From: a virus
Length of the DNA: 20,730 nt
IMG/VR virus record: IMGVR_UViG_3300042904_000223
Location: 1-20,730 of that record
Strand: one strand, 5' to 3'
Positions within the stretch are counted from its first letter, which is position 1; each line of letters opens with the position of its first letter. The notes below the pieces were generated by a model. The model did not search any database. It was not told the DNA's origin and was given only the letters and a program-made list of their open reading frames with translations. Below are positions 2,767 to 20,403 of the stretch, piece after piece. The position numbers and the translations under genes were made by a program.

Positions 2767-3527
2767 GAATCGCGTTTACATCCACGAACTATGGGCCGCT
2801 CTGGAAGCCTGTTGTGGAGGGGTGGATTGCCTGCGTGGGGTATACCGCGCGGCATTTTGCGATTGAGACTCCAGGGACCAGGGAAATTGCGGGCAATGCG
2901 ATCACTGACCGGATGTATACGCACAGCGCAGAAAACGCCATTGTCGAAAACTTCCTGAACGCCTACCCGAGGCTGACGCATCTGTTCATGACCGAATGCG
3001 ACATGATTTTGCCGCATGATGCGATTGTGAAGCTCCTGGAGGTTGATCAGCCAGTCGTGAGCGGCGTCTATTTCCTTCGCAAGGGCCGTGGGCAACCCTG
3101 CCTGTATGTAAAAACCCACACGACAAAAGATAACCCCTACGTCCATTCGCCCGTCAGTCTGTTTCCGACAGACAGGCCGTTTGCACTGGACCCGAACGGG
3201 CACGGCGGATGCCCTGGCCTTGGCTGCGTGCTCATCAAGCGCGAGGTCTTGGAAGCGGTTCCCAAGCCATGGTTTGACCTCAAGGAAAACTACTACGGGT
3301 CTGACATGTATTTCTGGACCAAGGTACGTGACGCAGGCTTTAACGTCTGGGTCAACCCGGCTGTCCAGTGCGGGCAGATTGATTATGAAGTGACGAGCTT
3401 GGCGGATTACACCAAGCGCATAGGGGAGGATAAAGACTTTGCCGCAAGCGGATACATTGTCGGAACCAATGGTTGGTCCGGTGCCCACAGGCGGATTCAA
3501 CCTGAACCTGGGCGCGGGGAAAAGTAG
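2754..3527 (+). CDS. GT-A-like glycosyltransferase
   Basis: 257 residues, starting at TTG 2754 inside the previous gene; no better ATG exists near the N-terminus. Features of GT-A nucleotide-sugar transferases are present: Glu81-Cys-Asp83 in place of the metal-binding DxD, then Val-Val-Ser-Gly-Val-Tyr and an Arg-Lys stretch (about 100-110), a Gly-x-Gly-Cys-Val-Leu-Ile-Lys-Arg segment near 155-163, and Gly-Ser-Asp with an aromatic Asp-Ala-Gly-Phe segment near 183-197, the usual site of the acidic catalytic region. It would move a sugar from a nucleotide donor to an unknown acceptor in the infected cell. Its last 89 bases overlap the methyltransferase gene. With two methyltransferases and a GT9 enzyme nearby, a glycan-building role is likely; donor and acceptor are unknown. 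Confidence 0.75.
   Translation: MDAVRIAFTSTNYGPLWKPVVEGWIACVGYTARHFAIETPGTREIAGNAITDRMYTHSAENAIVENFLNAYPRLTHLFMTECDMILPHDAIVKLLEVDQPVVSGVYFLRKGRGQPCLYVKTHTTKDNPYVHSPVSLFPTDRPFALDPNGHGGCPGLGCVLIKREVLEAVPKPWFDLKENYYGSDMYFWTKVRDAGFNVWVNPAVQCGQIDYEVTSLADYTKRIGEDKDFAASGYIVGTNGWSGAHRRIQPEPGRGEK
3422..3430 (+). promoter_or_regulatory. Strong ribosome binding site that sets a TTG start
   Basis: AGGGGAGGA lies inside the end of the glycosyltransferase gene, eight bases before the TTG at 3439. It supports that TTG over the later ATG 3469 and GTG 3481 as the start of the first methyltransferase, and so supports an 89-base overlap of the two genes. Confidence 0.65.
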
Positions 3528-4206
3528 TAAGCAGCCGGGCCTGCTGAACTGCGATCTCTACCCAGGGCCGAACATCGATGTGGTCTTTGACCTGACCAAG
3601 CCCTGGCCCTTTCCCGAACATTCGGTCGCTACCATCTACCTGTGTCATGTGCTGGAGCACTTGACGGACCCGAAGGCCTTCTTCCGTGAAGCGCATCGGT
3701 GCTTACGCCCGAACGGCACCATTTTGATACGGGTTCCCTATGGGGCGCATCGTGCCGCCTGGTGGGACCTTGAGCACGTAAGGCCTTGGTTTGCGGAAAA
3801 CTTCGCCATGCTGCAACCCGGCTATGCCGTGGCCGTGGGCAATCCACAGCATGATTCGTGGAAGTATCCATTCGGTATCTCGATTGTGCAGCTGCGCATT
3901 TCGTACCGTCTCGCCCGCTGGCTGAGGCGCTGGTGGTGGAAGTGGCTCTTTGCCAAGTTCCCACACTTGTTTGACCCAGAAATTGAAGAGCTGTGGGCGC
4001 ACCTGTATGCGCTCAAGACGGATGACGCGATTCAATATTATCGCAAGGACCATGACCCCATCGTAGTCGGCACCACGTATTCCGCCTATCAGCATCACCT
4101 GACCGACAAGGCCCCAGAGGCGGGCGTGTGTGTGCTGACAGACCTGATCGGCGGCATCACCATGAACGGTTATATCGGGCGCGTGTTTGGACTGGAAAAA
4201 GCCTAG
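3439..4206 (+). CDS. Class I SAM-dependent methyltransferase
   Basis: 255 residues. The SAM-binding loop is Asn-Leu-Asn-Leu-Gly-Ala-Gly (residues 21-27), followed by Cys-Asp-Leu at 38-40 as the motif II acidic position, and Cys-His-Val-Leu-Glu-His-Leu (69-75) typical of Methyltransf_11-like enzymes; Leu-Arg-Pro-Asn-Gly-Thr near 90 is the usual post-motif loop. The C-terminal half is Trp/Arg-rich (around 150-170) and may bind the acceptor. Start choice rests on the AGGGGAGGA site before TTG 3439. The next gene starts on the last base of its TAG. Neighbouring glycosyltransferases suggest methylation of a sugar or a small precursor, but DNA or protein as target cannot be excluded; it lacks the catalytic NPPY/DPPY signature of DNA adenine enzymes. 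Confidence 0.8.
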   Translation: MPQADTLSEPMVGPVPTGGFNLNLGAGKSSKQPGLLNCDLYPGPNIDVVFDLTKPWPFPEHSVATIYLCHVLEHLTDPKAFFREAHRCLRPNGTILIRVPYGAHRAAWWDLEHVRPWFAENFAMLQPGYAVAVGNPQHDSWKYPFGISIVQLRISYRLARWLRRWWWKWLFAKFPHLFDPEIEELWAHLYALKTDDAIQYYRKDHDPIVVGTTYSAYQHHLTDKAPEAGVCVLTDLIGGITMNGYIGRVFGLEKA

Positions 4207-4718
4207 TGGATAACGTGGTGATGCAATGGCTCATGGACTTTAACGAGGCGCATGGTCCGTTCAATCGCGTCCTAGAGCTGGGCAGCCTGAACGTGAATGG
4301 CACAGCCAGGACCGCCTTCTGGAATGCGAAAGAGTACGTAGGGATTGATAGCAGGCCAGGGCCGTGCGTGGATCATGTGATTGAAGCATCGTGGATAGCC
4401 GAGCACTTCGACGGGCATGACAAGTTTGATTGCGTAGTGGCCACATCGTTTTTCGAGCATGACCGGAATTTTGTACAAACCTTACGAAATGTACATTTTG
4501 TACTCAATTCAGGCGGCTACTTCGTCCTGACAGTCCCAACCCCTGACTTCCCGTACCATGCCGAGCCCAAAGACTATTGGCGCTTTCAGGAAGACGCCTT
4601 GCGTGACGTGTTCTTCGACGGTTTCTCAGAGGTAACAATTTTTAATCCACTCTGGACACCGCCGACTGGGCAAGAGCACTTGCGCTGCCAGCACATGGGC
4701 GGATGGGGGAATCTCTAA
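4206..4718 (+). CDS. Second class I SAM-dependent methyltransferase
   Basis: 170 residues from GTG 4206, which shares one base with the upstream TAG; ATG 4221 is a possible alternative five codons in. The open frame extends further upstream (to 4128 or earlier), but that part is out-of-frame overlap with the preceding gene. Val-Leu-Glu-Leu-Gly-Ser (22-27) is the SAM loop, Tyr-Val-Gly-Ile-Asp (44-48) supplies the acidic residue, and Ala-Thr-Ser-Phe-Phe-Glu-His (about 80-86) matches the motif IV region of small-molecule methyltransferases. It is not a close copy of the preceding methyltransferase. Its TAA is immediately followed by the GTG of the large surface protein. It probably acts in the same glycan-related pathway as its neighbours; the substrate is unknown. 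Confidence 0.75.
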   Translation: MDNVVMQWLMDFNEAHGPFNRVLELGSLNVNGTARTAFWNAKEYVGIDSRPGPCVDHVIEASWIAEHFDGHDKFDCVVATSFFEHDRNFVQTLRNVHFVLNSGGYFVLTVPTPDFPYHAEPKDYWRFQEDALRDVFFDGFSEVTIFNPLWTPPTGQEHLRCQHMGGWGNL

Positions 4719-7097
4719 GTGGCAACGACCTACACCAATCAACCGGCAGGGGCAACCATCTTCTACGACTGTTCGCTGGCCGGCACAATCTGCGGCTTAG
4801 CCAATGTGTACAACACGCAAGACTATGCCACCATGCTCAGGTCCGATGGAACGACAGGGCAAGTGTTCGATTCATACCTGGGCGAATATATCAGGAACGG
4901 AAACGGGGAATGGTGGTTAGCCCTTCCTCGCCCGCGAGAAGTCTATCTCGGCGTGCAGTGGAATACGAACGCAGACTTTCAGGGTATCGCCAACAATGGG
5001 AACAAGATGTTCTTCATCAAGGCCTCAGGCTCTGGCGATAATAGCTTTCTGATCTGGCAGGGCCTTCAGTATAGCCCGCGCACGCTCAAATGGGACTTCC
5101 AGGCGATCTATAGCAACGCGCATATCAACGGCTGGCAAGGGGATGCCAGTGGGCTCTCTGGCTGGCTAGAGCCGAACGTAAATTCCAGCGCAGCCACGGT
5201 GGCGGCTGGCGCGGGCTGGCGCTTTATTGAGATTTACCTGAAGGCAAGCACGACCGGCACATCTCGGGATGGGGTCGTGCGCTGGTGGGTACAGCGTACC
5301 CTGTGCGGGAACTATACCAACGTCAACATTTCCCCTGGTGGGTTCGAGGAATTCGTACTGACCCACACATGGGACAATGGCACGATCTTTGAGCCGCCTT
5401 CCCGCGACTGGTCCAAGGCCTGGCACCATTATTTCTCTGATTTGCGCATCACGACGGGCGGGACAGTGGGAGGCGGCGAGCCGCCACCTCAGGTCGTCCT
5501 GGAGTCACTCACTCCTGCCAATACCAGCACGACCGTAGGCGGAACCAGGCAATTTACCATCAGCATGAGCGGGGCCATGCCTACGGCTACCTCGCTCTTT
5601 ACCACCTCCAGCAATCCAGCGATAGCAACCGTGCCAGCCTCGGTCACGATCTCACAGGGCTCCTCAACGGCAGTATTTAGCGCCACTGGGGTAGCTGTGG
5701 GCTCGACCACGATTAGTACCAGCTATAACGGCGTGAACAAGGCCGGGACCTTGCAGGTTTCGGCAGCGCCCACGACCGGCTCAGATACGACATACACGTA
5801 CTCCACGGACTTTTCAGGCACGCAAGGGCCGTACTGGTACTACATGGAGGAAGACGGTACGGAGATGACCTACGATAGCGGCGGCTCCGTCTGGCTGGGC
5901 GCAGATGCGGCTGAAGTTCAAACGATCTGGGGGAACGGGTTTCACCCTGGGCGATTTGAAGGCTCCATGCTTCGGTTCGTGGTGCCCACTTCGAGCAGCG
6001 CTCATATCACCGGAGCCTACTACGATGCTGACGCGACAGGCGGAACGGGTGTAGTCGCCAGGGTCAACCATAACGGCGTGACGCTCTTTACCCGCACGAT
6101 TGCCAACGGCGAGACCACAGGCGGGGCCTACGATGTCACGGAAACGGTAGCTGCCGGAGATTTCATTGATTTCCTGGTGACGAACCAGACCAGTGATTAC
6201 ACGTACAATTCCACGAACCTGAACCCCGTCATTGTCCTGACCGAGACCACCTCCAATCCTGGCGGCGGGACGCCTCCCGACCCGCCTGCCACAGTGGTGG
6301 ACCTGTTCACGGCCAGCACGACAATCATCAAGGACGTGCCATTTACCTTGACCGTGCGGCTGTCCAAGATTGTGACGGTGGATACCGCGGTCGAAATCAG
6401 GGTTGGCAGTACCAGCTTGATTACAGCGGCAACCTCTGTCACGGTCGCATCGGGCACAAATGAAAAGTCCTTTACCGTTACGCCAATCCAGGTTGGCAGC
6501 GTAGCCATCGATGCGATTTTGACCACCACGGCTCGGTACAACGCGCTCATTCAGCCGAACCCGAACGATAACCCGCCAGTGGAAGAGCCAGAGATTCCGC
6601 CGATCACGCCAGAAAACCCCCTGATCGTGCGTAGCCTGGTCATTTCACCAGATGGGGCCGTGGTGCTCCTGAACAGGCCGGCCAATTCTATGGCCTTCCG
6701 GTACGATGCGCAGCCAGATTGGCGCGTGCTCAGCTCCTTCATTCCAGGCGGCGAGACGTTCACGCATGCATTCACCTGGCCATCAGGAACCACGCTCATT
6801 AGCTACCGTGCGCAGGACGGCGCGGGCACCTGGGGGCCGCATACCAGTGCAGCATTTGTCCCTCCGCAGCCGCCTCCCATTCCTCCACCTGTCACGCTGT
6901 CGGTGACTGACAAGGACGGCATCCGCTGGCAACTGACCGGCAAAATATCGCCCATGATTCTGAAGCGGAACGGCTCGACCATGAATAATACTTACGGCGT
7001 GACCTTGCGCAAGTCCGGGGACGGCTACATGGAAATGCTGCAAACGAATGGGGTCTGGTTGCGCAGGAACGGCAGCGCCTGGGAGTTTGTCGCATGA
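4719..7097 (+). CDS. Large modular beta/Ig-like surface protein, probable virion fibre or glycan-binding protein
   Basis: 792 residues from GTG 4719, placed directly after the TAA of the previous gene and with a purine-rich GGGGGA before it. The layout is: residues 1-245, a Trp- and Gly-rich beta domain that looks lectin/jelly-roll like; a Gly-Glu-Pro-Pro-Pro linker (about 248-256); an Ig-like domain (258-348) resembling the Big_2 type; a beta-sandwich (352-512) with the Gly-Thr-Gly-Val-Val-Ala-Arg-Val and Gly-Asp-Phe-Ile-Asp-Phe strands seen in carbohydrate-active enzymes; a Pro/Gly linker; a second Ig-like domain (525-610); a Pro/Glu linker (610-635); a short beta domain (635-705); a poly-Pro linker (714-724); and a C-terminal domain (725-792) with Arg-Arg-Asn-Gly-Ser. 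No signal peptide. Domain names are by eye. The place among glycan enzymes suggests that it carries or binds glycans. Confidence 0.72.
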   Translation: MATTYTNQPAGATIFYDCSLAGTICGLANVYNTQDYATMLRSDGTTGQVFDSYLGEYIRNGNGEWWLALPRPREVYLGVQWNTNADFQGIANNGNKMFFIKASGSGDNSFLIWQGLQYSPRTLKWDFQAIYSNAHINGWQGDASGLSGWLEPNVNSSAATVAAGAGWRFIEIYLKASTTGTSRDGVVRWWVQRTLCGNYTNVNISPGGFEEFVLTHTWDNGTIFEPPSRDWSKAWHHYFSDLRITTGGTVGGGEPPPQVVLESLTPANTSTTVGGTRQFTISMSGAMPTATSLFTTSSNPAIATVPASVTISQGSSTAVFSATGVAVGSTTISTSYNGVNKAGTLQVSAAPTTGSDTTYTYSTDFSGTQGPYWYYMEEDGTEMTYDSGGSVWLGADAAEVQTIWGNGFHPGRFEGSMLRFVVPTSSSAHITGAYYDADATGGTGVVARVNHNGVTLFTRTIANGETTGGAYDVTETVAAGDFIDFLVTNQTSDYTYNSTNLNPVIVLTETTSNPGGGTPPDPPATVVDLFTASTTIIKDVPFTLTVRLSKIVTVDTAVEIRVGSTSLITAATSVTVASGTNEKSFTVTPIQVGSVAIDAILTTTARYNALIQPNPNDNPPVEEPEIPPITPENPLIVRSLVISPDGAVVLLNRPANSMAFRYDAQPDWRVLSSFIPGGETFTHAFTWPSGTTLISYRAQDGAGTWGPHTSAAFVPPQPPPIPPPVTLSVTDKDGIRWQLTGKISPMILKRNGSTMNNTYGVTLRKSGDGYMEMLQTNGVWLRRNGSAWEFVA

Positions 7098-7990
7098 TCT
7101 TCGTTCACCACGCGGGCAAAATGGGGGATCTCCTCTATGCACTGCCAGTACTGCGGGCGTTGGCAAGGGTCCACCAAACGAAAATCCACCTCACCACATC
7201 AGGGCTGTGCTGGCAGCTCGTGCCCCTCTTGTGGGAACAGCCTTATATCGGGGACGTGGCCCTGGATGACACCAGAGCCTATGAGCTTCCCTTCGGCGTC
7301 GGCATTACAAACCACTGGGACCACTACAAACCAGGCGAAGGCATCAACCTTAGTCTCCAGCCCAAGCACTATGCCGATAACTGCCCCATCAACTGGACCC
7401 AGGCGTATGCGTGGATCGCTGGGGTTGAGCTGGCCCAAGACGATTTTGTTGCGCTCCCATCCCTCATCAATCACCGGCGATGGTTCCAGACCGTAGACTG
7501 CCGCCTGGACGGCAAAAAGCAGGAAGTGACGAAGACCATTGTGGTAGCGCCTGAAGTCGAAACCCTGGAGCCGGCCCCGGCTGAGACATGGACCAAGATT
7601 ATGGACGCGCTCATGGAGAACTATCAAGTGGTCCTGGTAGGCCAGAAGCGGGACACGAACTACCACCATAAAATCATGGCCTGGGCTGGCAGTAAGAACA
7701 ACCACAAGCTTAGCGACATGCGCGGCTGCACGACGGTCCCAACCCTAGCCAGGATCATAGCCGAGGCGTCAGGGTTTATCGGGGCACATTCCATGCCCTG
7801 GCACCTCGCCCGGCTCTCTGGCGTGCCAGCCTTCTGCTTCCAGAAGTGGCGCGAAGGCTTGCGACGGTGCATCCCCATCGACAGTGACCCGAACTTGTGC
7901 CCCTGGCCAGAGGAAATAGAGGACTGGCAAGCCGCCGTAGAATGGATTGAGACGACCACAGGAGGACCCGCCCATGCCGTATCGCAATGA
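7094..7990 (+). CDS. GT9-family (heptosyltransferase-like) GT-B glycosyltransferase
   Basis: 298 residues; ATG 7094 overlaps the upstream TGA by four bases, with GGGAG at 7081-7085. The N-terminal Gly-Lys-Met-Gly-Asp-Leu-Leu-Tyr-Ala-Leu-Pro-Val-Leu-Arg segment (residues 8-21) is the family's opening motif, and Phe-Ile-Gly-Ala-His-Ser-Met-Pro-Trp-His-Leu-Ala (about 228-239) is the C-terminal donor-binding motif of ADP-heptose:LPS heptosyltransferases and relatives. In bacteria these add heptose or another sugar to LPS core. The length is slightly shorter than the usual 320-350 residues. In a phage such a gene could change host LPS to block superinfection, or modify a virion protein. Its coupling to the 792-residue protein favours a shared role, as an inference. 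The sugar is unknown. Confidence 0.82.
   Translation: MIFVHHAGKMGDLLYALPVLRALARVHQTKIHLTTSGLCWQLVPLLWEQPYIGDVALDDTRAYELPFGVGITNHWDHYKPGEGINLSLQPKHYADNCPINWTQAYAWIAGVELAQDDFVALPSLINHRRWFQTVDCRLDGKKQEVTKTIVVAPEVETLEPAPAETWTKIMDALMENYQVVLVGQKRDTNYHHKIMAWAGSKNNHKLSDMRGCTTVPTLARIIAEASGFIGAHSMPWHLARLSGVPAFCFQKWREGLRRCIPIDSDPNLCPWPEEIEDWQAAVEWIETTTGGPAHAVSQ
7960..7965 (+). promoter_or_regulatory. AGGAGG ribosome binding site deciding the next start
   Basis: AGGAGG lies eight bases before ATG 7974, inside the end of the GT9 gene. It supports that ATG as the start of the small downstream gene over an in-frame TTG at 7947. Confidence 0.7.
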
Positions 7991-8267
7991 TGAATTCTTA
8001 CGCAAAGCCCGCGTCACACTCTACTATGATGCGGACGCCCAAAAGCTCTTGGCCTATTGCAAGGTAGAGCCGTTTGATTCCGTCTCAGAATATGACACGA
8101 ATGCTGAATTTTATGTACCCATTCGTATTAGCGCCAACATCTTTGACAAAAACGAGATGCCCTTTCGGGTGGTCATTGAAAATAAGAAGGATGGGGCATT
8201 CCCATCCAGCGCCCACAAGGGCCAGACCGTGGGCACGGTTGAGATTCACCAATACGGGGACCTGTGA
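7974..8267 (+). CDS. Small protein of unknown function
   Basis: 97 residues. ATG 7974 is chosen over the upstream in-frame TTG 7947 because of the AGGAGG at 7960-7965. The protein is mixed alpha/beta in appearance and rich in Tyr, Phe, Asp, Glu and Lys. I see no membrane segment, no metal motif and no known family. It overlaps the GT9 gene by 17 bases and its TGA is used in a GTGA overlap with the first adaptor-like gene. It therefore links the accessory block to the connector block, and could belong to either. A head-tail joining role is possible but not supported by any motif. Confidence 0.7.
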   Translation: MPYRNDEFLRKARVTLYYDADAQKLLAYCKVEPFDSVSEYDTNAEFYVPIRISANIFDKNEMPFRVVIENKKDGAFPSSAHKGQTVGTVEIHQYGDL

Positions 8268-8944
8268 ACCGAGGCCAAATTATTGACCGCGTGCTGACTT
8301 CGCTGAACGAGTCCACAATTGCGCCTGTGTTCTGGACCAGGGCAGAGCTGGCCGATATTCTGCAGGACGGCATGGAAGTCATGGCCGAGGAAGTCATGGC
8401 CCTGAAGCGTTCGGCCTTTGTCGGGCTTGGCCCTGGAAAACTCTATTATCGGACCCGAGGCATTGCCAAGGACTTCCGCGTGCCCTATCGCCTCTGGCTG
8501 TCCAGCAATAACCGCAAGCTCATTCCTGTCACGGTCGAGCAGCTTGACGGCTTTCATCAGCAATGGTCCACGGTAACGGGCGATCCTGAATACTGGGCGC
8601 CCATGGGCTATGACTGGTTCGCGATCTTTCCCCATCCCTCTGCGGGCGGGGGCGTGCTCAGGATTGACTACTTGGCCTGGCCGCGGGTGTTAGGCGGCGA
8701 CGATGACAAGCCGGAATTCTCAGAGTCAGACCATGAAACCCTTATGACCTACGGCATTTACGACGGCCTGCTCAAGCGCTGGGCCGCGCCAGAGGCCATG
8801 GCCATCTTTGCGCAGTTCCTTGAAAAGCTGGGCCTGGCCGTGCCTAAGAGCGGCGTCAATCAGCTCAATGGCCGAACCTGGCAAAAGGCCAGTGCAGAGG
8901 CGAGCGGGTTTAGGAATGGAATAGGGTGGAGGGATAACCGTTGA
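8264..8944 (+). CDS. Head-tail adaptor-like protein 1
   Basis: 226 residues from GTG 8264 in a GTGA overlap. The N-terminus pairs a short helix (Ile-Ile-Asp-Arg-Val-Leu) with a Trp-Thr-Arg-Ala-Glu-Leu-Ala-Asp helix near residue 25, then a strand-rich middle with Tyr-Trp and Ile-Asp-Tyr, and a C-terminal helical part that ends in a basic, Gly-rich tail. The helix - Trp-Thr-x-Ala-Glu-Leu - helix start is also found in the next gene and is typical of adaptor proteins that sit between portal and nozzle in podoviruses (SU10-type adaptors). The assignment rests on this pattern and on the downstream nozzle-like gene. I am fairly sure it is a connector part, less sure which ring it forms. Confidence 0.68.
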   Translation: MNRGQIIDRVLTSLNESTIAPVFWTRAELADILQDGMEVMAEEVMALKRSAFVGLGPGKLYYRTRGIAKDFRVPYRLWLSSNNRKLIPVTVEQLDGFHQQWSTVTGDPEYWAPMGYDWFAIFPHPSAGGGVLRIDYLAWPRVLGGDDDKPEFSESDHETLMTYGIYDGLLKRWAAPEAMAIFAQFLEKLGLAVPKSGVNQLNGRTWQKASAEASGFRNGIGWRDNR

Positions 8945-10272
8945 CGGTTGCTGCCCAACTCTTAAAAGTCCGCGACAAGCTGCATGATGCCGTCGGTATT
9001 CTCTGGACCGATGCTGAGCTGCTCGATTGGTTCAATGATGGCTACGTGGAATTTCTGGAGCAGACCCGGTGCGTAACCGAGCTGTATCAGATGGATCTGC
9101 CCCCACGGTACGCCTATACCTACTGCCACGAGTGGGAAGACGCATTCTGTAGTGATGGGCCTGGCCGCATGATGCTCTTGCCCGCGCTCAACGGGGTCTA
9201 TCGCTGCACCTCGGCCTGGGAAGTGGAATTCCTAGAAGGCGTGGCAACGACCATCAGTGAAAGCGGCATTACCCAAATGTGGGAACGGTCCCTCATGTCG
9301 ACCGATCGGCATTATCAAGTCACGCTGCCGCAGAATCACGAAATCATCCAGCGTGTGGCCTTTGACAATAAGGTGCTCTACCCCTCGACCGTGCGTGAAC
9401 TTGACGAGTTACGGTCTAAGTGGTACATGCAGGGAACACAACCCCACTGGTGGACCAATGGCACAGGCAGAGTCAACACGGTCGAAGTCTACGAAATCCA
9501 AACGGAGTACCAGCAAAGCTATTGCCCAGTCGAGTATGAACGCAGCGGTTTCGCACGTACATTCTCTGGCGCTCGAAATTATATCGTTGATAGCCCTGTG
9601 GCCAATGCATACGCCTATACAACGTCAGGCGATGGGCAAGCTCTTGACCTCGCTGCGAGCGCTCTTATTGCCGGTCTTGGTTGGCGCTTCACCACAGCAG
9701 CCAGTGACAGCGACTCAACCTTCTGCACGCACATCTGGGAAGAAGAGCTAGTCGAGGGCTCCACCACATTTTCCACCTCTCCAGGCTACGTCTGCACCTA
9801 CGCCTGGGAATACCTCATGCTCGGGCTCACGCCTCCATCCTTTGGCGTGGGCACCATCCGCAGTATTGAGTCTGAAGACCGCCAGTACTGGGCCCAGAAC
9901 GCGAGCAACAGCGCGGCCTTTTACGGCGGGATCCGCCAATTTCAAAGCTCAGACGATGCGCTAGAAATCTGGCATACGGTGGTCCCGCGTGTGGACCTGA
10001 CCGCCTACGATACCCCTGACCTTTTGCCATCCCAGGCCCATAAGTATCTGCGCTATTTTGTCCTGCACAAGGCCTTTGGCCGGCAAGGGCCAGCCATGAA
10101 CCTACAACTCTCAGGCCTGTACAAGGCCCAGTTTGACCGCGGCGTGACAGCCTGGAAGCGGCTGACGAACCTGGCCAAGGAAGACCAGATTCTAGGCCGT
10201 GACATGGCCGAGGATAGCCGTGGGGCGAGACTGCCGCTAGTGCGGTTACCAGCTAATTTTGAGGCGTATTAA
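8941..10272 (+). CDS. Head-tail adaptor-like protein 2, with four Cys/Trp-Glu repeats
   Basis: 443 residues, TTG 8941 in a TTGA overlap and seven bases after GGAGGG (8928-8933). The N-terminus (Leu-Trp-Thr-Asp-Ala-Glu-Leu-Leu-Asp-Trp-Phe-Asn-Asp-Gly, about 20-33) resembles the preceding gene. The C-terminus has an Ala-His-Lys-Tyr-Leu-Arg-Tyr helix and an Ala-Phe-Gly-Arg-Gln-Gly turn followed by a long basic helix, as in podovirus adaptors that hold the portal to the tail. Between them is a middle part of about 250 residues, longer than in a minimal adaptor, with Cys and Trp-Glu motifs at about residues 62, 89, 262 and 284. It probably forms a second connector ring or an extended tail-base part. 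The 3' end overlaps a possible antisense gene by 20 bases. Confidence 0.7.
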   Translation: MTVAAQLLKVRDKLHDAVGILWTDAELLDWFNDGYVEFLEQTRCVTELYQMDLPPRYAYTYCHEWEDAFCSDGPGRMMLLPALNGVYRCTSAWEVEFLEGVATTISESGITQMWERSLMSTDRHYQVTLPQNHEIIQRVAFDNKVLYPSTVRELDELRSKWYMQGTQPHWWTNGTGRVNTVEVYEIQTEYQQSYCPVEYERSGFARTFSGARNYIVDSPVANAYAYTTSGDGQALDLAASALIAGLGWRFTTAASDSDSTFCTHIWEEELVEGSTTFSTSPGYVCTYAWEYLMLGLTPPSFGVGTIRSIESEDRQYWAQNASNSAAFYGGIRQFQSSDDALEIWHTVVPRVDLTAYDTPDLLPSQAHKYLRYFVLHKAFGRQGPAMNLQLSGLYKAQFDRGVTAWKRLTNLAKEDQILGRDMAEDSRGARLPLVRLPANFEAY

Positions 10273-10468
10273 TGGATTCTGATCTTACGAGGCGGTTGCG
10301 AAGCATGACCCTGCTTCGTGCAGCGTCCCTACTCATGCCAACGATGGTAGCGATTTTTTCATATGTGAGCCCGGACTCTCTCAGCCAGCAACAGATTGAA
10401 GTCTTATCATCAAGTGCCGCTGCCGACCATCTCCTGGGGCGTTTTGCAGTAACCATGGATGCAATCAT
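10253..10468 (-). CDS. Possible antisense helix-turn-helix regulator
   Basis: 71 residues on the minus strand, from ATG (10468-10466) to TAG (10255-10253). A basic N-terminus with Arg-Pro-Arg-Arg-Trp (10-14) leads to an Asp-rich helix, Cys-Trp-Leu-Arg-Glu-Ser-Gly, and YEKIATIVGMSRDAARSR (about 36-53). The last has Ala at position 5, Gly at 9 and Ser at 11 of a classical HTH, and resembles sigma region 4, GcrA or Myb-like DNA-binding segments. AAGGA on the minus strand (10481-10477) lies eight bases before the start, and a 15-bp palindrome overlaps it. It would bind DNA, perhaps its own start region. Against it: a + strand ORF fills the same bases with perfect stop/start coupling, so the two readings compete. 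Confidence 0.55.
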   Translation of the reverse strand: MIASMVTAKRPRRWSAAALDDKTSICCWLRESGLTYEKIATIVGMSRDAARSRVMLRNRLVRSESINTPQN

Positions 10469-10475
10469 AGCATGA
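10272..10475 (+). CDS. Alternative reading: small coupled hypothetical protein
   Basis: 67 residues on the + strand. ATG 10272 shares its A with the TAA of the adaptor-like gene (TAATG), and its TGA sits in an ATGA overlap with the nozzle-like gene, so position favours translation. The nozzle-like gene has no clear ribosome binding site of its own and could rely on this coupling. The chain is rich in Leu, Ser and Ala, with a hydrophobic stretch near residues 19-31, and matches no family I know. It is the sense shadow of the antisense HTH reading, codon for codon in register. Both may be translated, but I think only one is the selected protein. Confidence 0.35.
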   Translation: MDSDLTRRLRSMTLLRAASLLMPTMVAIFSYVSPDSLSQQQIEVLSSSAAADHLLGRFAVTMDAIIA

Positions 10476-10477
10476 TT
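10463..10477. promoter_or_regulatory. 15-bp palindrome over the divergent start codons (candidate operator)
   Basis: AATCAT-AGC-ATGATT is a perfect 6-bp inverted repeat with a three-base spacer. Its left arm contains the minus-strand start codon (10468-10466) and its right arm begins with the ATG of the nozzle-like gene at 10472. A helix-turn-helix dimer could bind here and control translation or transcription of its own gene. Part of the symmetry follows from two divergent ATG codons, so the palindrome alone is weak evidence. Confidence 0.35.
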
Positions 10478-12211
10478 CCTTCAACGCTGAAAGGCCATGA
10501 CACGGGCGGCTTCCTGGGCGTGAACCTGCGCCAGGACCGGCTCAGGCTCGCAGATGGAGACGTGGCCAGGGCCATTAATGCCGACCTACACACACAGCCT
10601 GGCACGATCATGCTGAGGCTGGGCCGCACGCGGCAGTTTGACACGGCCTTTGCCGATCTCACGATTAGGCAGCTGGTTCGTTACTACGGGGGTGCTCGCT
10701 ATCGAGCAGCAGGCAATTCCCTATACCGCAATGAGACGGCGATCTACAGCGGCCTGTCCAGTGAGCTTGTCACGACCATGGTGCCATTCAGGCCATTGAA
10801 CGATACGACCGCCTACATGTTCATTGCTGATCAGTCCCGCATGCAAAAGGACAGTGGCACGGCCTTATCAGATTGGGGCGTGGCTGCTCCCTCGACCAAG
10901 CCCACGGTAGCAGTCGGAGCCTCAACCGGCCTCTCTGGGGCCTACAGCTTTCGCTATACCTACATTCGCAAGGTAGACGGCGTGACGGTCTACGAGTCGA
11001 ACCCATCCCCTGTGAGTGATACGGTCAACCCTGTCACGCAAGACATTGCCATTAGTGGCCTGATCGATTCCACGGACAGCACGATCACGCATAAGCGCAT
11101 CTACCGAACAACGGGTGATGCGACCACGTACTTGTTTGACCAGGACATTGCGACTGGCACCACGACCGGCACGAGTAGCCAGGGGGATACAGCGCTGGGC
11201 GGCGAAGTTGAGACCGATAACGACCCGCCACCAGAGGCGTCGTGGTGCTTCAGCTACCTAGAGCATATGTTTCTCTTGCGAGATGAAGATAACCCGCATT
11301 TCCTCTGGTGGAGCAAGCGCTATCAGCCCGAGTCCGTACCAGCTGAGAACTTTATCGAAATCGGCCACCCGCAGGACCCGCTGCAATGTGGCGTGGCCTA
11401 TGGTGGTCTGGCTGGCGTGTTCAGCCGCCTGACCAAGTACCGGATACTGGGCAATACCACCAGCGGCTTTGTCCATCAAGAGGCCATGTCCAAGCGTGGC
11501 ACGCCTGCCTTTAAGGCCGTGGTAGCGAGTGAGCACGGCATTATCTTTCCAGCGCTGGACGGTATCTTTGTGACGCAGCTGGTGAGCCCTGACACGGAAG
11601 TGACCAACGAAATTGAACCGTTGTTTTTTGGCGAGACCGTCAATGGCTTCTACCCCATCAACTGGGGCGCGGCCTCGCAATTTACCGCAGCTGTGTTTAA
11701 GGGCCGCTACTACTTGAGCTATGCCGACACACGCAGCCAGACCCCGAACATGCTCATGGTCTACAGCTTTGACACCAAGCGCTGGTATTTCTACGACCAT
11801 CCCTTGAGCAGCTTTTTCGTCGAAGAGGACCGCAACGTACTCACGGCGGGCACCCAGACCGGCTTTGTCATCAACATGGAAACGGGCAGCGATGACGAGG
11901 GCGAAGATATCGCCATGGAAGTGGAGACCCGCGACTATGCCGGCGAAGAGGGTAGCAATATCCTGAAACTGTATCAGTTCATGCGCGTGGACGCGGACAC
12001 GCTGGGCGAGTCCGTGAATGTGGACCTGTATCTGGACGATACCAGAAGGGCTACGCTTTACATTTCGCACAATGGACGGTCCAGCAAGCTCTACAGCCTG
12101 CCGCCGAGCCTGCTTGGCTACAAGTGGCGAGCCAAGGTCCGGTACACCGGCACAGCCAGAGTCAGAATCTATAGTGCAGGGACCATGTATGTTCCGCTGA
12201 GTGCAGCATGA
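10472..12211 (+). CDS. Tail nozzle-like protein (T7 gp12 / podovirus nozzle position)
   Basis: 579 residues from ATG 10472 (ATGA overlap). It opens with a Gly-rich start and Asn-Leu-Arg-Gln-Asp-Arg-Leu (19-25). It continues with many beta strands: a Tyr-Ser-Phe-Arg-Tyr-Thr-Tyr-Ile-Arg fibronectin-like segment near residue 155, Lys-Arg-Ile-Tyr-Arg-Thr near 208, then propeller-like repeats with Ser-Glu-His-Gly-Ile (about 355), Tyr-Leu-Ser-Tyr-Ala and Tyr-Ser-Phe-Asp-Thr-Lys-Arg-Trp-Tyr (about 429). Such long beta-propeller-like proteins after adaptors form the tail nozzle (tail tubular protein B) in podoviruses, through which DNA leaves. There is no clear ribosome binding site, only weak GGAT at 10457, so its translation may depend on an upstream ORF. 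The nozzle call is an inference from pattern and gene order. Confidence 0.72.
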   Translation: MIPSTLKGHDTGGFLGVNLRQDRLRLADGDVARAINADLHTQPGTIMLRLGRTRQFDTAFADLTIRQLVRYYGGARYRAAGNSLYRNETAIYSGLSSELVTTMVPFRPLNDTTAYMFIADQSRMQKDSGTALSDWGVAAPSTKPTVAVGASTGLSGAYSFRYTYIRKVDGVTVYESNPSPVSDTVNPVTQDIAISGLIDSTDSTITHKRIYRTTGDATTYLFDQDIATGTTTGTSSQGDTALGGEVETDNDPPPEASWCFSYLEHMFLLRDEDNPHFLWWSKRYQPESVPAENFIEIGHPQDPLQCGVAYGGLAGVFSRLTKYRILGNTTSGFVHQEAMSKRGTPAFKAVVASEHGIIFPALDGIFVTQLVSPDTEVTNEIEPLFFGETVNGFYPINWGAASQFTAAVFKGRYYLSYADTRSQTPNMLMVYSFDTKRWYFYDHPLSSFFVEEDRNVLTAGTQTGFVINMETGSDDEGEDIAMEVETRDYAGEEGSNILKLYQFMRVDADTLGESVNVDLYLDDTRRATLYISHNGRSSKLYSLPPSLLGYKWRAKVRYTGTARVRIYSAGTMYVPLSAA

Positions 12212-15900: not shown

Positions 15901-17311
15901 ACCACGAAGGACACCGGAAGAGGCGGCCATGCAGGACTTGCTGCAACAGCAGCCAGCCGAGCCGCAAGGCCCACAGTACGGCGTGAGCAATAACACGCCA
16001 GACGTGGGATTCATGGGCAAGTATGTCATCCCTGCCGTTGCCCCGACGATTGGTAGCATGGCTGGAACTGCGATAGGAGGCGCAGCCGGTAGCGTGGTCC
16101 CTGGACTTGGTACTGGGATCGGGGCTGCCGTGGGTAGCGGCCTGGGGAGTGGGGCAGGGGAAGCGCTCAATCAGGCCATGGGCATCACCGACCCGAGCCT
16201 AAGAAACATTGGCCTATCGACTGCCATCCCCATGGGTGTCGGACTTGGGGCAAATGCGCTAAGGGTCGGCAAGTCCATGTTTGGGGCGCGAGGCGCTCAG
16301 ACACTGAATGCCATCGCACCAGAGGAGGCCGCCGCCGCCGTGGCACGGCTCAAGCCCGAAATTCCATCTAAGTTTCTATTTGAAACGGCCTCAGAGGGTG
16401 GGGCCGCCATTCCCATGGGGCGCACGGTCAAGATGATTGATTCCATGCTGGACGACCTTGGGGCATCTGCCGTGCCTGGTCAAGGCGCATCCAAGGGTGT
16501 GCAGGCGGCAAACCGGCAAGTTATTTCGTATCTGAAGGGCCTGAAAGATAAGCTGATTGCTAATCCGAACGGACTCTCCCCGAGAGACTTGCAGCGCGAG
16601 TTAGCCGGGGTTGGAAGTGTCAAGAAAGCGCTTCAGGCTAAGGGCGGGGGCGGATTGGGCGCAGTCAGGCAAACCTTTAAGTCTATGTCGGATGATCTGG
16701 ATGAAGTGGCGAATATGGCCGATGACGTGGGCAGCAATTCGGCGGCCATGCTCAAGGAGGCCAGGCAAGTCTTCAAGAAAGAGGCCGCCGTCGATGAGCT
16801 GGACGACGCCATTCAGGCCGCAGTAAAAACGCTCAGGGGGCAGGGCGGGGACACGCAGTTTAACGCGAACCTAGTCCTAAAGGAGCTGAAGAATAACAAA
16901 TTCATTCAAGACTCTTTCTCGAAAGAAGAAATCAAAGAAATAGAGTCTCTTTTTTCAAAGCTAAACCGCATTCCCGCGTTACGGCCAGGCGCTGGGGCAC
17001 AGGCCGGGAGCCGCAGCGTTCTACAGGGCGCTGTAGCTGGCGGTGGAATGGGGGCTGGCGTTACCACGGCGATGGGCCTTGGCCCAGGCATAGGGGCAGG
17101 CATCGGTACGGCGCTTGGCGTAGCAGTTCCGCCACTGGCCGAGATGTCCAAAAACTTCGCCATTGCCCTGAGCATGAAAACGGGCCGCGCTCTGGTCGGG
17201 CAGCTCCTCAAAAACAGCGACGGGGCCTTAACACCTCAGGCGCTTTCGATTATCTCAGCCTATGCTCAAGCGACACGTGCTGGCGCAGAAAGCGCGGTGG
17301 CACCGCAATGA
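15884..17311 (+). CDS. Glycine-zipper internal virion protein-like
   Basis: 475 residues from GTG 15884, with AGGGAGGG at 15868-15875; it overlaps the previous gene by 17 bases. A Pro/Gln-rich start is followed by a long Gly/Ala-rich segment (about 45-100) with Gly at every third or fourth residue, typical of membrane-active glycine zippers. The middle (about 145-365) is Lys/Asp/Ala-rich and helical. A second Gly/Ala segment (about 382-415) comes before a helical end. Two membrane-active segments fit a protein that enters the host envelope to make a DNA channel, as proposed for podovirus ejection proteins. Position after gp13- and gp14-like genes supports this. There is no lytic transglycosylase motif, which some T7 gp16-like proteins have. 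Confidence 0.68.
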   Translation: MPPNDKPRRTPEEAAMQDLLQQQPAEPQGPQYGVSNNTPDVGFMGKYVIPAVAPTIGSMAGTAIGGAAGSVVPGLGTGIGAAVGSGLGSGAGEALNQAMGITDPSLRNIGLSTAIPMGVGLGANALRVGKSMFGARGAQTLNAIAPEEAAAAVARLKPEIPSKFLFETASEGGAAIPMGRTVKMIDSMLDDLGASAVPGQGASKGVQAANRQVISYLKGLKDKLIANPNGLSPRDLQRELAGVGSVKKALQAKGGGGLGAVRQTFKSMSDDLDEVANMADDVGSNSAAMLKEARQVFKKEAAVDELDDAIQAAVKTLRGQGGDTQFNANLVLKELKNNKFIQDSFSKEEIKEIESLFSKLNRIPALRPGAGAQAGSRSVLQGAVAGGGMGAGVTTAMGLGPGIGAGIGTALGVAVPPLAEMSKNFAIALSMKTGRALVGQLLKNSDGALTPQALSIISAYAQATRAGAESAVAPQ

Positions 17312-18576
17312 CCGAAACGATACGCTATACGCGCATTGCCCTACAGGACCTAGACCTGGGCTCAGGCTCAACGCAAATCACTTTAGCTGATGGCCGTGTG
17401 GTGGTCATGGATCAAGTGAGCTTGGCCGGCATTGCACAGGATGCGGGCGTGCTCAGCTTCGATCAAGTGGCCGTCCAGTCTGTAAAACATCCCTCTCTCG
17501 CCTCAGCCATTGCCACGCTGGGCAGTACCGAGGCCACGATTGTGATCGCCAACTTGCAGACGATCGACAGCAATGCCACGGTGCCGAGCAACATCACGCT
17601 CCAGTTTCTGGACCAGGGCCAAGTCAGTGTTGCCAGCGGCGTGACCTTCCTGGTCAATGGCCGGGTAGTTGCGGCGAACAGGCAGATTTTCTCAGGCTCT
17701 GGCACGACCACGCTGGATAGTAGCGTGAATCCGCTGGAGTATGGCTACTGGAAGGGCGGGGGTGGGCTCCCCTACCTGACCGGCTTCAAGGGCGGGCAAA
17801 GCACCACGACCACGCCTTTTTCCTTGCAAGACGCAGCCGGCACGACTGGCCGTAGGCTGTCACTGGAGGCATCCAGCGCAGGCGGGGCCGAATTCCAGAT
17901 GAAGCCAGGGTCTAGCGCCACTCCTGCCAGCCAAGTGACCAATGACCTGATTATGCAGCACAAGACAGGGACGGACCTGGAGCAATTCAGGATTAGAACC
18001 GCGTCCAATGTCTACACCCTGGACAGCACCTATAGCAACGCAGGCACGGCCAGGCCCATTGCCTTTACCATGGGCGCACGGATCGAACCCTCGGCAGTCG
18101 CTGGCGTAACAGCCCTGACCTTGTATGCGGACGCATCTGTTGATATACATAGCTCGAGCTACACGGCAAACGGAAAAGTGTGGGGGGCGACGTATGCACG
18201 GTTTGTGGATCTTGGAGACAACGGCACTACGAAAGTTATCCTCGACACTCGTTCAACAACTCCCGCCTCCAACACGGCGGACGCCTGCTTCCATGAGTAC
18301 CGCCGAGGAGGAACGGCAAAATGGTCTATTGGCCTTAATGTTACAGCTACAGCAGTTGACTCACTGGACTTCTATTCCTCTGGGGGCCGGTTCGTCCGGT
18401 TCCTTGACCTCAACTCAGGCCCAGTCATCGAACTCAGCGCGGAATGCAGCGCAGACCCAGACGCCCCAGCCGCCAACAGGGCCAGGCTCTATTTGATCGA
18501 TAGCGGGGCAGGGAAAACGATTCTCAAGGTACGATTTGCAACTGGGGCCGTTCAAACGATTGCGACCCAGCCATGA
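17308..18576 (+). CDS. Tail fibre protein 1
   Basis: 422 residues from ATG 17308 in an ATGA overlap. The first 160 residues match the start of fibre 2: Thr-Glu-Thr-x-Arg-Tyr-x-Arg (2-9), Leu-Ala-Asp-Gly-Arg-Val-Val (26-32), Val-Pro-Ser-Asn-Ile-Thr near 92, and Phe-Ser-Gly-Ser-Gly-Thr near 130. This shared part is the likely virion anchor. Residues 165-380 are Ser/Thr/Gly-rich beta strands, and the end, Ala-Arg-Leu-Tyr-Leu with Gly-Lys-Thr-x-Leu-x-Val-Arg-Phe-x-Thr-Gly-Ala-Val-Gln, is a C-terminal motif seen on many phage fibres. No pectate-lyase motif. The part from about 18130 to 18360 seems to use different codons and may be a recombined patch. It probably binds the host surface. Confidence 0.82.
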   Translation: MTETIRYTRIALQDLDLGSGSTQITLADGRVVVMDQVSLAGIAQDAGVLSFDQVAVQSVKHPSLASAIATLGSTEATIVIANLQTIDSNATVPSNITLQFLDQGQVSVASGVTFLVNGRVVAANRQIFSGSGTTTLDSSVNPLEYGYWKGGGGLPYLTGFKGGQSTTTTPFSLQDAAGTTGRRLSLEASSAGGAEFQMKPGSSATPASQVTNDLIMQHKTGTDLEQFRIRTASNVYTLDSTYSNAGTARPIAFTMGARIEPSAVAGVTALTLYADASVDIHSSSYTANGKVWGATYARFVDLGDNGTTKVILDTRSTTPASNTADACFHEYRRGGTAKWSIGLNVTATAVDSLDFYSSGGRFVRFLDLNSGPVIELSAECSADPDAPAANRARLYLIDSGAGKTILKVRFATGAVQTIATQP

Positions 18577-18722
18577 CAGATAGAGATTTTTATATCGTTA
18601 TCGGTATAAAAGAGAGTGAAATTTATACTCTTTCCAATATCAACGCGCAATTAACGAAGGACCTAGAGGCTGCACGAGCCCAACTTGAGGAGTTGGCTCG
18701 TGACAGAAACAGTCCGGTATAG
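18573..18722 (+). CDS. Small AT-rich coiled-coil protein between the fibre genes
   Basis: 49 residues, ATG 18573 in an ATGA overlap with the TGA of fibre 1, TAG at 18720-18722. The N-terminus is Met-Thr-Asp-Arg-Asp-Phe-Tyr-Ile-Val-Ile-Gly-Ile-Lys-Glu, followed by a Leu/Glu/Ala helix (about 22-43) with heptad-like spacing. The bases 18580-18660 are clearly more AT-rich than both neighbours. The last 23 bases overlap fibre 2, so the gene can couple the two fibre genes. I have seen similar short Lys-Glu-x-Glu-Ile coiled-coil ORFs in phage late regions but know no function; a fibre chaperone or an adaptor between fibres is possible. Confidence 0.62.
   Translation: MTDRDFYIVIGIKESEIYTLSNINAQLTKDLEAARAQLEELARDRNSPV
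18687..18692 (+). promoter_or_regulatory. GAGGAG ribosome binding site that sets the GTG start of fibre 2
   Basis: GAGGAG lies seven bases before GTG 18700, inside the small coiled-coil gene. The protein from this GTG aligns from its first residue with fibre 1, which supports it over the in-frame TTG at 18685. Confidence 0.7.
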
Positions 18723-20403
18723 TCGCATCTACCTGCCCGACCTCTCCGTTGGCACTGGCACCGGCCAAGTCGTTCTAGCAGATGGCCGCGTGGTGTCCAT
18801 GGACGACATCAACCTGGACGCGCTGGCCCTTCAGCTCTCGGGCCGCTCTGGCATCCTCCCCATTAAAGTACTGGGCCAGAAATGGTACGCCATGGCTGGT
18901 TACAATACGCTGTCCGATGCGCTCCTGGCCATTGGGAGCGATACCCGTACCCTCCTTATCACGACTCCGCTGACAATCGGCGGGGCCACATCCATCCCTT
19001 CCAACGTGACAGTCTGCCTAGCAGGCGAAGGTTCGTTTACGATTGCCTCTGGCGCTATACTGACCTTCGCTAGCCCGAAACAGCTTATCCCCTTGACCCA
19101 TAAACCGCTTTTTACCGGCGCAGGAACGGTATCTTTTACAGCCGTGGGGACCGTGAGCCCTGCCTGGTGGGGCGCAACGGGCGACGGCTCGACCGATGAC
19201 ACCACGGCGCTCCAGGCCGCCATTACTGCCGCCTCCGCTGGACACGTGATTATCCCGATCGGAACGCATCTCATCTCTACCAAGCTCAGCGTCCAGAGCT
19301 ATACACGCATCAGCGGGCATGGGTACGGGTCTGTCATTAAGAAGGCCGCCAACATCGACATGTTCCAGCTTGGCGTGCGCACGGAAATTGACAACCTGCG
19401 CATTGACGGCGCGGGGGCCTCCTATACGGGCCGCGGCATTCTCATGACCACAGGCGGCGGCACCGATGGCCGGCGCAACATTCACGACTGCTGGATCTTT
19501 GACACGGAAAGCTACTGTATCGAATTCACCGAGTCTGGCGCAGCCTTTCAATCCATCGTCGCGCATAACCAGATGGACACATACAACTACGAAACCTATG
19601 CCGTCAAGCTCCCTGACACCGATGCCAACGGCCCTTGCACGCTGATAGGCAATTTCACGAACGGCCCAGGCGTGAATATCGGCGGGGCCGCTGGCTGCAA
19701 CATGATCGGCAATACCTTCGGGCAAGGTCCGTTTTCCGTGCTCGGTCCATGGACCGTGCCGCCCATCACCATGAATGATGATTGCTTCAAGGTGCTGGCC
19801 GTGGGAAATACCTTTGAGACAACACAATCCGTCACGCTCAAGGGTTCGCGCAGCACCTATACCGGCAACGTCTTCAATGGCGGCTATACCATCGGCGCAG
19901 ACTCGACCTTTATCCATGTCGCTGGCGCAACCGGCACGGCGGCTGTGACCGCGTATGACACGGACAATAGCGCAAGCGTTACGAATGAAATCTACAGCCT
20001 AGAGCATACCTACACCCCGACCTGGACCGGCTCAAGCTCCAATCCTGCCATAGGAGATGGCACGATTACAGGAGCCTGGCAGCGCAATGGCCTGACCGTG
20101 ACGGTCCGCATTTATGTGCTCATGGGCAGTACGACCACCTACGGGACAGGGACGTGGCGCTGGTCCCTCCCCACTGGTGTCCCTACCCCTAGCGGCGTCT
20201 TGGCTCCGTCGTTTGTGTGCGGCACGGCACTCATGACGGACAGCGGCGGCGGCGTGACCTATGGCGGCATGGCCTTCTATAACGGGACAGCCTTTGAAGT
20301 CTATGACGCAGTGGGCGGAGGCGGGCCAGTCACGAACCTGGCCCCATTTACCTGGGCCTCTGGCGATTCCATGCATATCACCATGACCTACCTCTTGCAA
20401 TAA
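18700..20403 (+). CDS. Tail spike/fibre protein 2 with pectate-lyase-like beta-helix
   Basis: 567 residues from GTG 18700. Residues 1-160 are the anchor shared with fibre 1. Then Trp-Trp-Gly-Ala-Thr-Gly-Asp-Gly-Ser-Thr-Asp-Asp-Thr-Thr-Ala-Leu (about 156-171) is the entry motif of the Pectate_lyase_3 right-handed beta-helix, followed by about 250 residues with Asn/Gly-rich turns at regular spacing. A separate end domain (about 430-567) starts near Thr-Pro-Thr-Trp-Thr-Gly and contains Asn-Pro-Ala-Ile-Gly-Asp-Gly and Trp-Arg-Trp-Ser-Leu-Pro, a common tail-protein tip. Many such spikes cut or bind capsule or O-antigen. The catalytic residues cannot be picked out here, so depolymerase activity is an inference. 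Confidence 0.85.
   Translation: MTETVRYSRIYLPDLSVGTGTGQVVLADGRVVSMDDINLDALALQLSGRSGILPIKVLGQKWYAMAGYNTLSDALLAIGSDTRTLLITTPLTIGGATSIPSNVTVCLAGEGSFTIASGAILTFASPKQLIPLTHKPLFTGAGTVSFTAVGTVSPAWWGATGDGSTDDTTALQAAITAASAGHVIIPIGTHLISTKLSVQSYTRISGHGYGSVIKKAANIDMFQLGVRTEIDNLRIDGAGASYTGRGILMTTGGGTDGRRNIHDCWIFDTESYCIEFTESGAAFQSIVAHNQMDTYNYETYAVKLPDTDANGPCTLIGNFTNGPGVNIGGAAGCNMIGNTFGQGPFSVLGPWTVPPITMNDDCFKVLAVGNTFETTQSVTLKGSRSTYTGNVFNGGYTIGADSTFIHVAGATGTAAVTAYDTDNSASVTNEIYSLEHTYTPTWTGSSSNPAIGDGTITGAWQRNGLTVTVRIYVLMGSTTTYGTGTWRWSLPTGVPTPSGVLAPSFVCGTALMTDSGGGVTYGGMAFYNGTAFEVYDAVGGGGPVTNLAPFTWASGDSMHITMTYLLQ

Follow-up and report, generated by a model that had tools for sequence, protein, structure and literature searches.

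A moron is an extra ORF lodged between neighbours that adjoin in related phages, typically flanked by a promoter and a terminator (PMC3029335). In the Pseudomonas phage Fc02, small genes overlap on opposite strands in the lysis–lysogeny control region, and their transcripts have been mapped (PMC9936078). The locus described here combines an insertion relative to its nearest relative, similarity to helix-turn-helix (HTH) proteins in the minus-strand reading of the inserted DNA, and an open plus-strand frame with start/stop overlaps at both ends. It lies in the 20,730-bp viral record IMGVR_UViG_3300042904_000223 (hereafter the window), which comes from an uncultured temperate-type phage and carries a podovirus-like virion module on its plus strand.

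A variable junction upstream of the nozzle gene

The inserted DNA (10273–10471, 199 nt) extends from the stop of a gene for a 443-aa virion protein (8941–10272, plus strand; PHROG 399 match at the N-terminus) to the start of the gene for a 579-aa nozzle/phage stabilisation protein (10472–12211, plus strand; PHROG 511), whose own ribosome site is weak in the window. The first-pass annotation had placed the site between the adaptor and nozzle genes, which is right on the nozzle side; the SU10-adaptor family match falls on the gene at 8264–8944, one upstream of the 443-aa gene that is the immediate neighbour.

Scans with the nozzle protein, the 443-aa gene and the major capsid all yielded only the same two contigs, G001 (locus L002) and G002 (locus L003), with nozzle proteins of 98% and 86% identity, respectively; the nozzle alignment had no matches in genome_contigs, hence no further relatives with the slot. 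The three genomes are otherwise collinear across most of the window. At L002, the TAG of the 443-aa gene is followed immediately by the nozzle ATG (0 nt, versus 199 nt in the window), so that the insert sits between two genes contiguous in a close relative, the arrangement by which morons are recognised. At L003, the same junction holds 143 nt of unrelated DNA with a plus-strand gene (about 4868–5000), which has its own AGGAGG site and encodes a 44-aa protein with a strongly hydrophobic stretch and no family match. Among more distant phages matched by the capsid protein, the nozzle-like gene usually comes directly after the upstream neighbour, with a gap in one; in ctXG1253, matched by the nozzle protein, an annotated holin immediately precedes the nozzle-like gene. 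Because its contents differ between the window, G001, G002 and these more distant phages, the junction upstream of the nozzle gene is, as judged from sequence comparison, a gain/loss slot. The G+C content of the insert is lower (51.5% vs 57.1%), and a search for mobile-element borders found no direct repeats of at least 8 at its junctions.

Several other features of the window were recorded. A second variable junction lies at 8935–8965, where G001 and G002 have some 80–90 extra bases between the genes for a 226-aa protein and the 443-aa protein that are missing from the window. An HNH endonuclease gene (2010–2507; PHROG 2255, E=1.4e-12) is absent at that place in G001 (alignment gap 1960–2506). 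Within the virion module, two genes encode proteins with methyltransferase domains and a further one weakly matches glycosyltransferase 9 (3439–4206, 4128–4718 and 7094–7990). Two tail-spike-like genes (17308–18576 and 18685–20403), the second with a pectate-lyase-like domain, look alike by eye over their first ~50 residues (TETIRYTRI/TETVRYSRI), possibly a common anchor. No defence families were found.

HTH-coding sequence on the minus strand

The minus-strand ORF runs from 10468 to 10253 and encodes a 71-aa protein, MIASMVTAKRPRRWSAAALDDKTSICCWLRESGLTYEKIATIVGMSRDAARSRVMLRNRLVRSESINTPQN, a predicted small free-standing HTH protein with a sigma-region-4-like core at about residues 21–64. This assignment draws on the ORF call, a family profile, weak matches to HTH-clan Pfam models, an AlphaFold2 model and fold matches. 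Residues 26–61 align to positions 17–52 of the 60-position PHROG 11457 profile, a significant match (E=1.2e-6 against the library, 3.4e-8 within the record). Several HTH-clan Pfam models match weakly (0.009–0.04), all under their curated cut-offs; Sigma70_r4_2 (PF08281), for instance, scores 16.1 bits and does not reach its gathering cut-off of 25.7. Across all six frames of the 20.7-kb record, PHROG 11457 (E<=0.01) and Sigma70_r4_2 (E<=0.1) each match at this ORF and nowhere else.

Two control sets put these values in context: 150 antisense ORFs from G001 and G002, and 50 codon-shuffled versions of the plus-strand ORF. The best PHROG E-values were 3.3e-4 among the former and 6.2e-3 among the latter. 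The antisense ORFs gave scattered Pfam matches (0.006–0.046), including ribbon-helix-helix models (Arc, CopG), and none to the HTH models matched by the minus reading; none of the codon-shuffled ORFs matched an HTH Pfam model.

AlphaFold2, run on the single sequence without an alignment, predicts helices at residues 21–31, 36–43 and 47–64, with a pLDDT of about 84–92 across residues 21–64; in this prediction the protein has the three helices of a tri-helical HTH. The closest folds were those of SIRV1 ORF55, matched by Foldseek with a probability of 1.00, and of sigma region 4, the model lying near that of ECF sigma factors; the comparison with 3vfz (sigma region 4) gave a VIA Z of 8.0. The Foldseek E-values are weak (best 0.3 in the PDB) and we therefore claim the fold class alone: the predictions support a tri-helical HTH resembling sigma region 4. 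The first-pass annotation had also described a Trp-rich helix preceding the HTH, which overstates the composition of the protein: it contains two Trp residues, W14 in the low-confidence N-terminal tail and W28 in helix 1.

No close homologue of the minus reading appeared at a meaningful E-value in viral_contigs, in genome_contigs or in tblastn searches of phages and plasmids. The N-termini of Microvirga IS630 transposases were considered as relatives (46–50% identity over ~36 residues) and rejected at E-values of 0.4 or worse; PDB sequence matches to repetitive chains were set aside as sums of weak repeat matches. Altogether, profile matches, controls and predicted fold support the presence of HTH-coding sequence on the minus strand.

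The signals around this ORF lie outside the insert. A Shine–Dalgarno-like AAGGA (10477–10481, minus strand), 8 nt upstream of the ATG, falls in codons 2–4 of the nozzle gene and is missing at the corresponding place in both relatives; the ORF's ribosome site and stop are both within flanking phage genes. The anti-SD duplex energy is −5.7 kcal/mol at the minus start versus −5.6 at the plus start, as computed here and below with a generic 16S tail that may differ from that of the host. Within 10000–10900 we found no intrinsic terminator and no promoter of the sigma-70-like type, which may not be the type used by the host. The 71-residue ORF, its HTH and the properly spaced AAGGA described initially are all present, and the HTH match goes beyond chance as gauged by the controls.

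The plus-strand frame and probable translational coupling

On the plus strand, a 67-aa ORF (10272–10475) exactly fills the insert, overlapping the upstream gene through TAATG and the nozzle gene through ATGA. It had been described as perfectly coupled and devoid of recognisable content, which our searches bear out: both overlaps are present, and no relatives were found among Pfam and PHROG families, in viral_contigs or by tblastn against phages and plasmids. AlphaFold2 predicts a helical structure for it in which every residue stays below a pLDDT of 90. A common origin with the 44-aa gene of L003 was rejected, as the two do not align. A membrane protein was likewise considered from a hydrophobic stretch and dropped, since 58% of minus-frame codon shuffles reach the same hydrophobicity.

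All three nozzle genes start with ATGAT, and the GAGG site (10261–10264, plus strand) that precedes the nozzle gene in L002 now precedes the 67-aa ORF. On sequence grounds, the simplest view is that the TAATG start of this ORF marks where the nozzle gene once began, together with the GAGG site that served it. The anti-SD energy at the nozzle start is −3.1 kcal/mol in the window versus −5.6 in both relatives. Given this weak site at the nozzle start, translation of the plus frame is probable, if only to couple it to the nozzle gene and irrespective of what its product does.

The two frames are in register, with third codon positions opposite each other. Phage-trained codon scores are higher for the plus frame (0.06 to 0.08) than for the minus frame (−0.12 to −0.11), and among gene windows the synonymous usage of the minus frame falls in the lowest 0.6% and that of the plus frame at the 5th percentile. 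Poor synonymous usage in both frames is consistent with foreign DNA. Of synonymous back-translations of the minus protein, about 40% leave the plus frame open, so an open plus frame opposite it is unsurprising; of those of the plus protein, about 11% leave the minus frame open.

These data bear on the simplest alternative, in which the insert is an ordinary 67-aa plus-strand gene of the late operon and its antisense HTH likeness is coincidental. The ends of the insert coincide with those of the plus ORF, with coupling on both sides; the codon score prefers this frame; the L003 slot holds a plus-strand gene; and the adjacent junction at 8941 likewise varies in length among the three genomes. 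Such a gene would, however, have no homologue in anything searched and poor synonymous usage of its own, its hydrophobic stretch is of a kind that codon-shuffled antisense also yields, and the HTH match lies far beyond the 200 control sequences. We regard this explanation as somewhat unlikely.

Origin of the insert and comparison with known systems

The explanation that we tentatively favour, with slightly less than even confidence, is that a small HTH cassette was inserted antisense at the variable slot, in a moron-like manner, and that its plus frame was kept open for coupling. A cassette of ~199 bp encoding a small, sigma-region-4-like HTH protein would have been gained antisense at a variable junction of the tail module. 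Translation of its plus frame would deliver ribosomes to the start of the nozzle gene, where the local ribosome site is weak; because the plus frame hands over ribosomes in this way, only cassettes open in both directions would be tolerated at the junction. The HTH protein might then come from a minus transcript that begins within the nozzle gene, perhaps in the prophage state, and might bind DNA as a regulator.

Several observations count against a working antisense gene: no sigma-70-like promoter and no terminator found nearby, a Shine–Dalgarno site and a stop that both belong to neighbouring genes, atypical codon usage and the absence of a close homologue. In an alternative explanation, the insert is a captured antisense HTH-coding fragment whose minus strand is unexpressed; only its open plus frame would have a role, either in bridging translation or as a nascent gene. 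HTH homology would then persist in an insert that has promoter, SD and stop all missing inside it, neither frame would be adapted in codon usage, and the weak nozzle ribosome site implies translation through the plus frame. Against this, the minus ORF retains its start codon, a rightly spaced AAGGA, 71 unbroken codons and a full HTH domain, and we consider a silent fragment somewhat improbable.

As for a regulator that times late expression by interference or DNA binding, which the first-pass annotation had proposed, its HTH-coding part is supported and its expression in that role is not: no sigma-70-like promoter or terminator was found nearby, the slot is empty or occupied by a plus-strand gene in the two known relatives, minus codon usage is atypical, and the probably translated plus frame matches the slot end to end. 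We give little credence to a two-way cassette in which the minus strand yields an HTH regulator of the late operon, acting through both DNA binding and opposed transcription, and plus-strand translation of the same bases couples the tail genes. Expression of the minus ORF during lysogeny is possible, given that the relative G002 has an integrase. This integrase gene (L011, 4496–5167; PHROG 216, E=4.7e-23), on the minus strand close to where the contig ends, suggests a temperate lifestyle.

Returning to the antisense HTH cassette, expression of its minus gene would make it a regulator embedded, on the opposite strand, in a virion operon of coupled genes. It would also illustrate how tight coupling can be reconciled with an antisense insertion, the cassette having to be open both ways for the downstream tail gene to stay translated.

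Compared with described families, the minus ORF resembles PHROG 11457, of unknown function, in being a small free-standing protein that matches the profile, and differs in that no close homologue of it was found. It shares with the region 4 HTH of sigma-70 and ECF sigma factors (Sigma70_r4_2) the pattern GLTYEKIATIVGMSRDAARSRV and the predicted fold; unlike sigma factors, it scores below the Pfam cut-off and has no sigma region 2. As in Fc02, small phage reading frames occupy the same bases on opposite strands in the window; those of Fc02 lie in a control region and have mapped transcripts, whereas the pair here sits in the virion module. Finally, unlike morons, the insert is open on both strands, with an antisense HTH reading and no sigma-70-like promoter or terminator found; like the morons of tailed phages, it is one ORF-sized segment between genes that adjoin in a relative.
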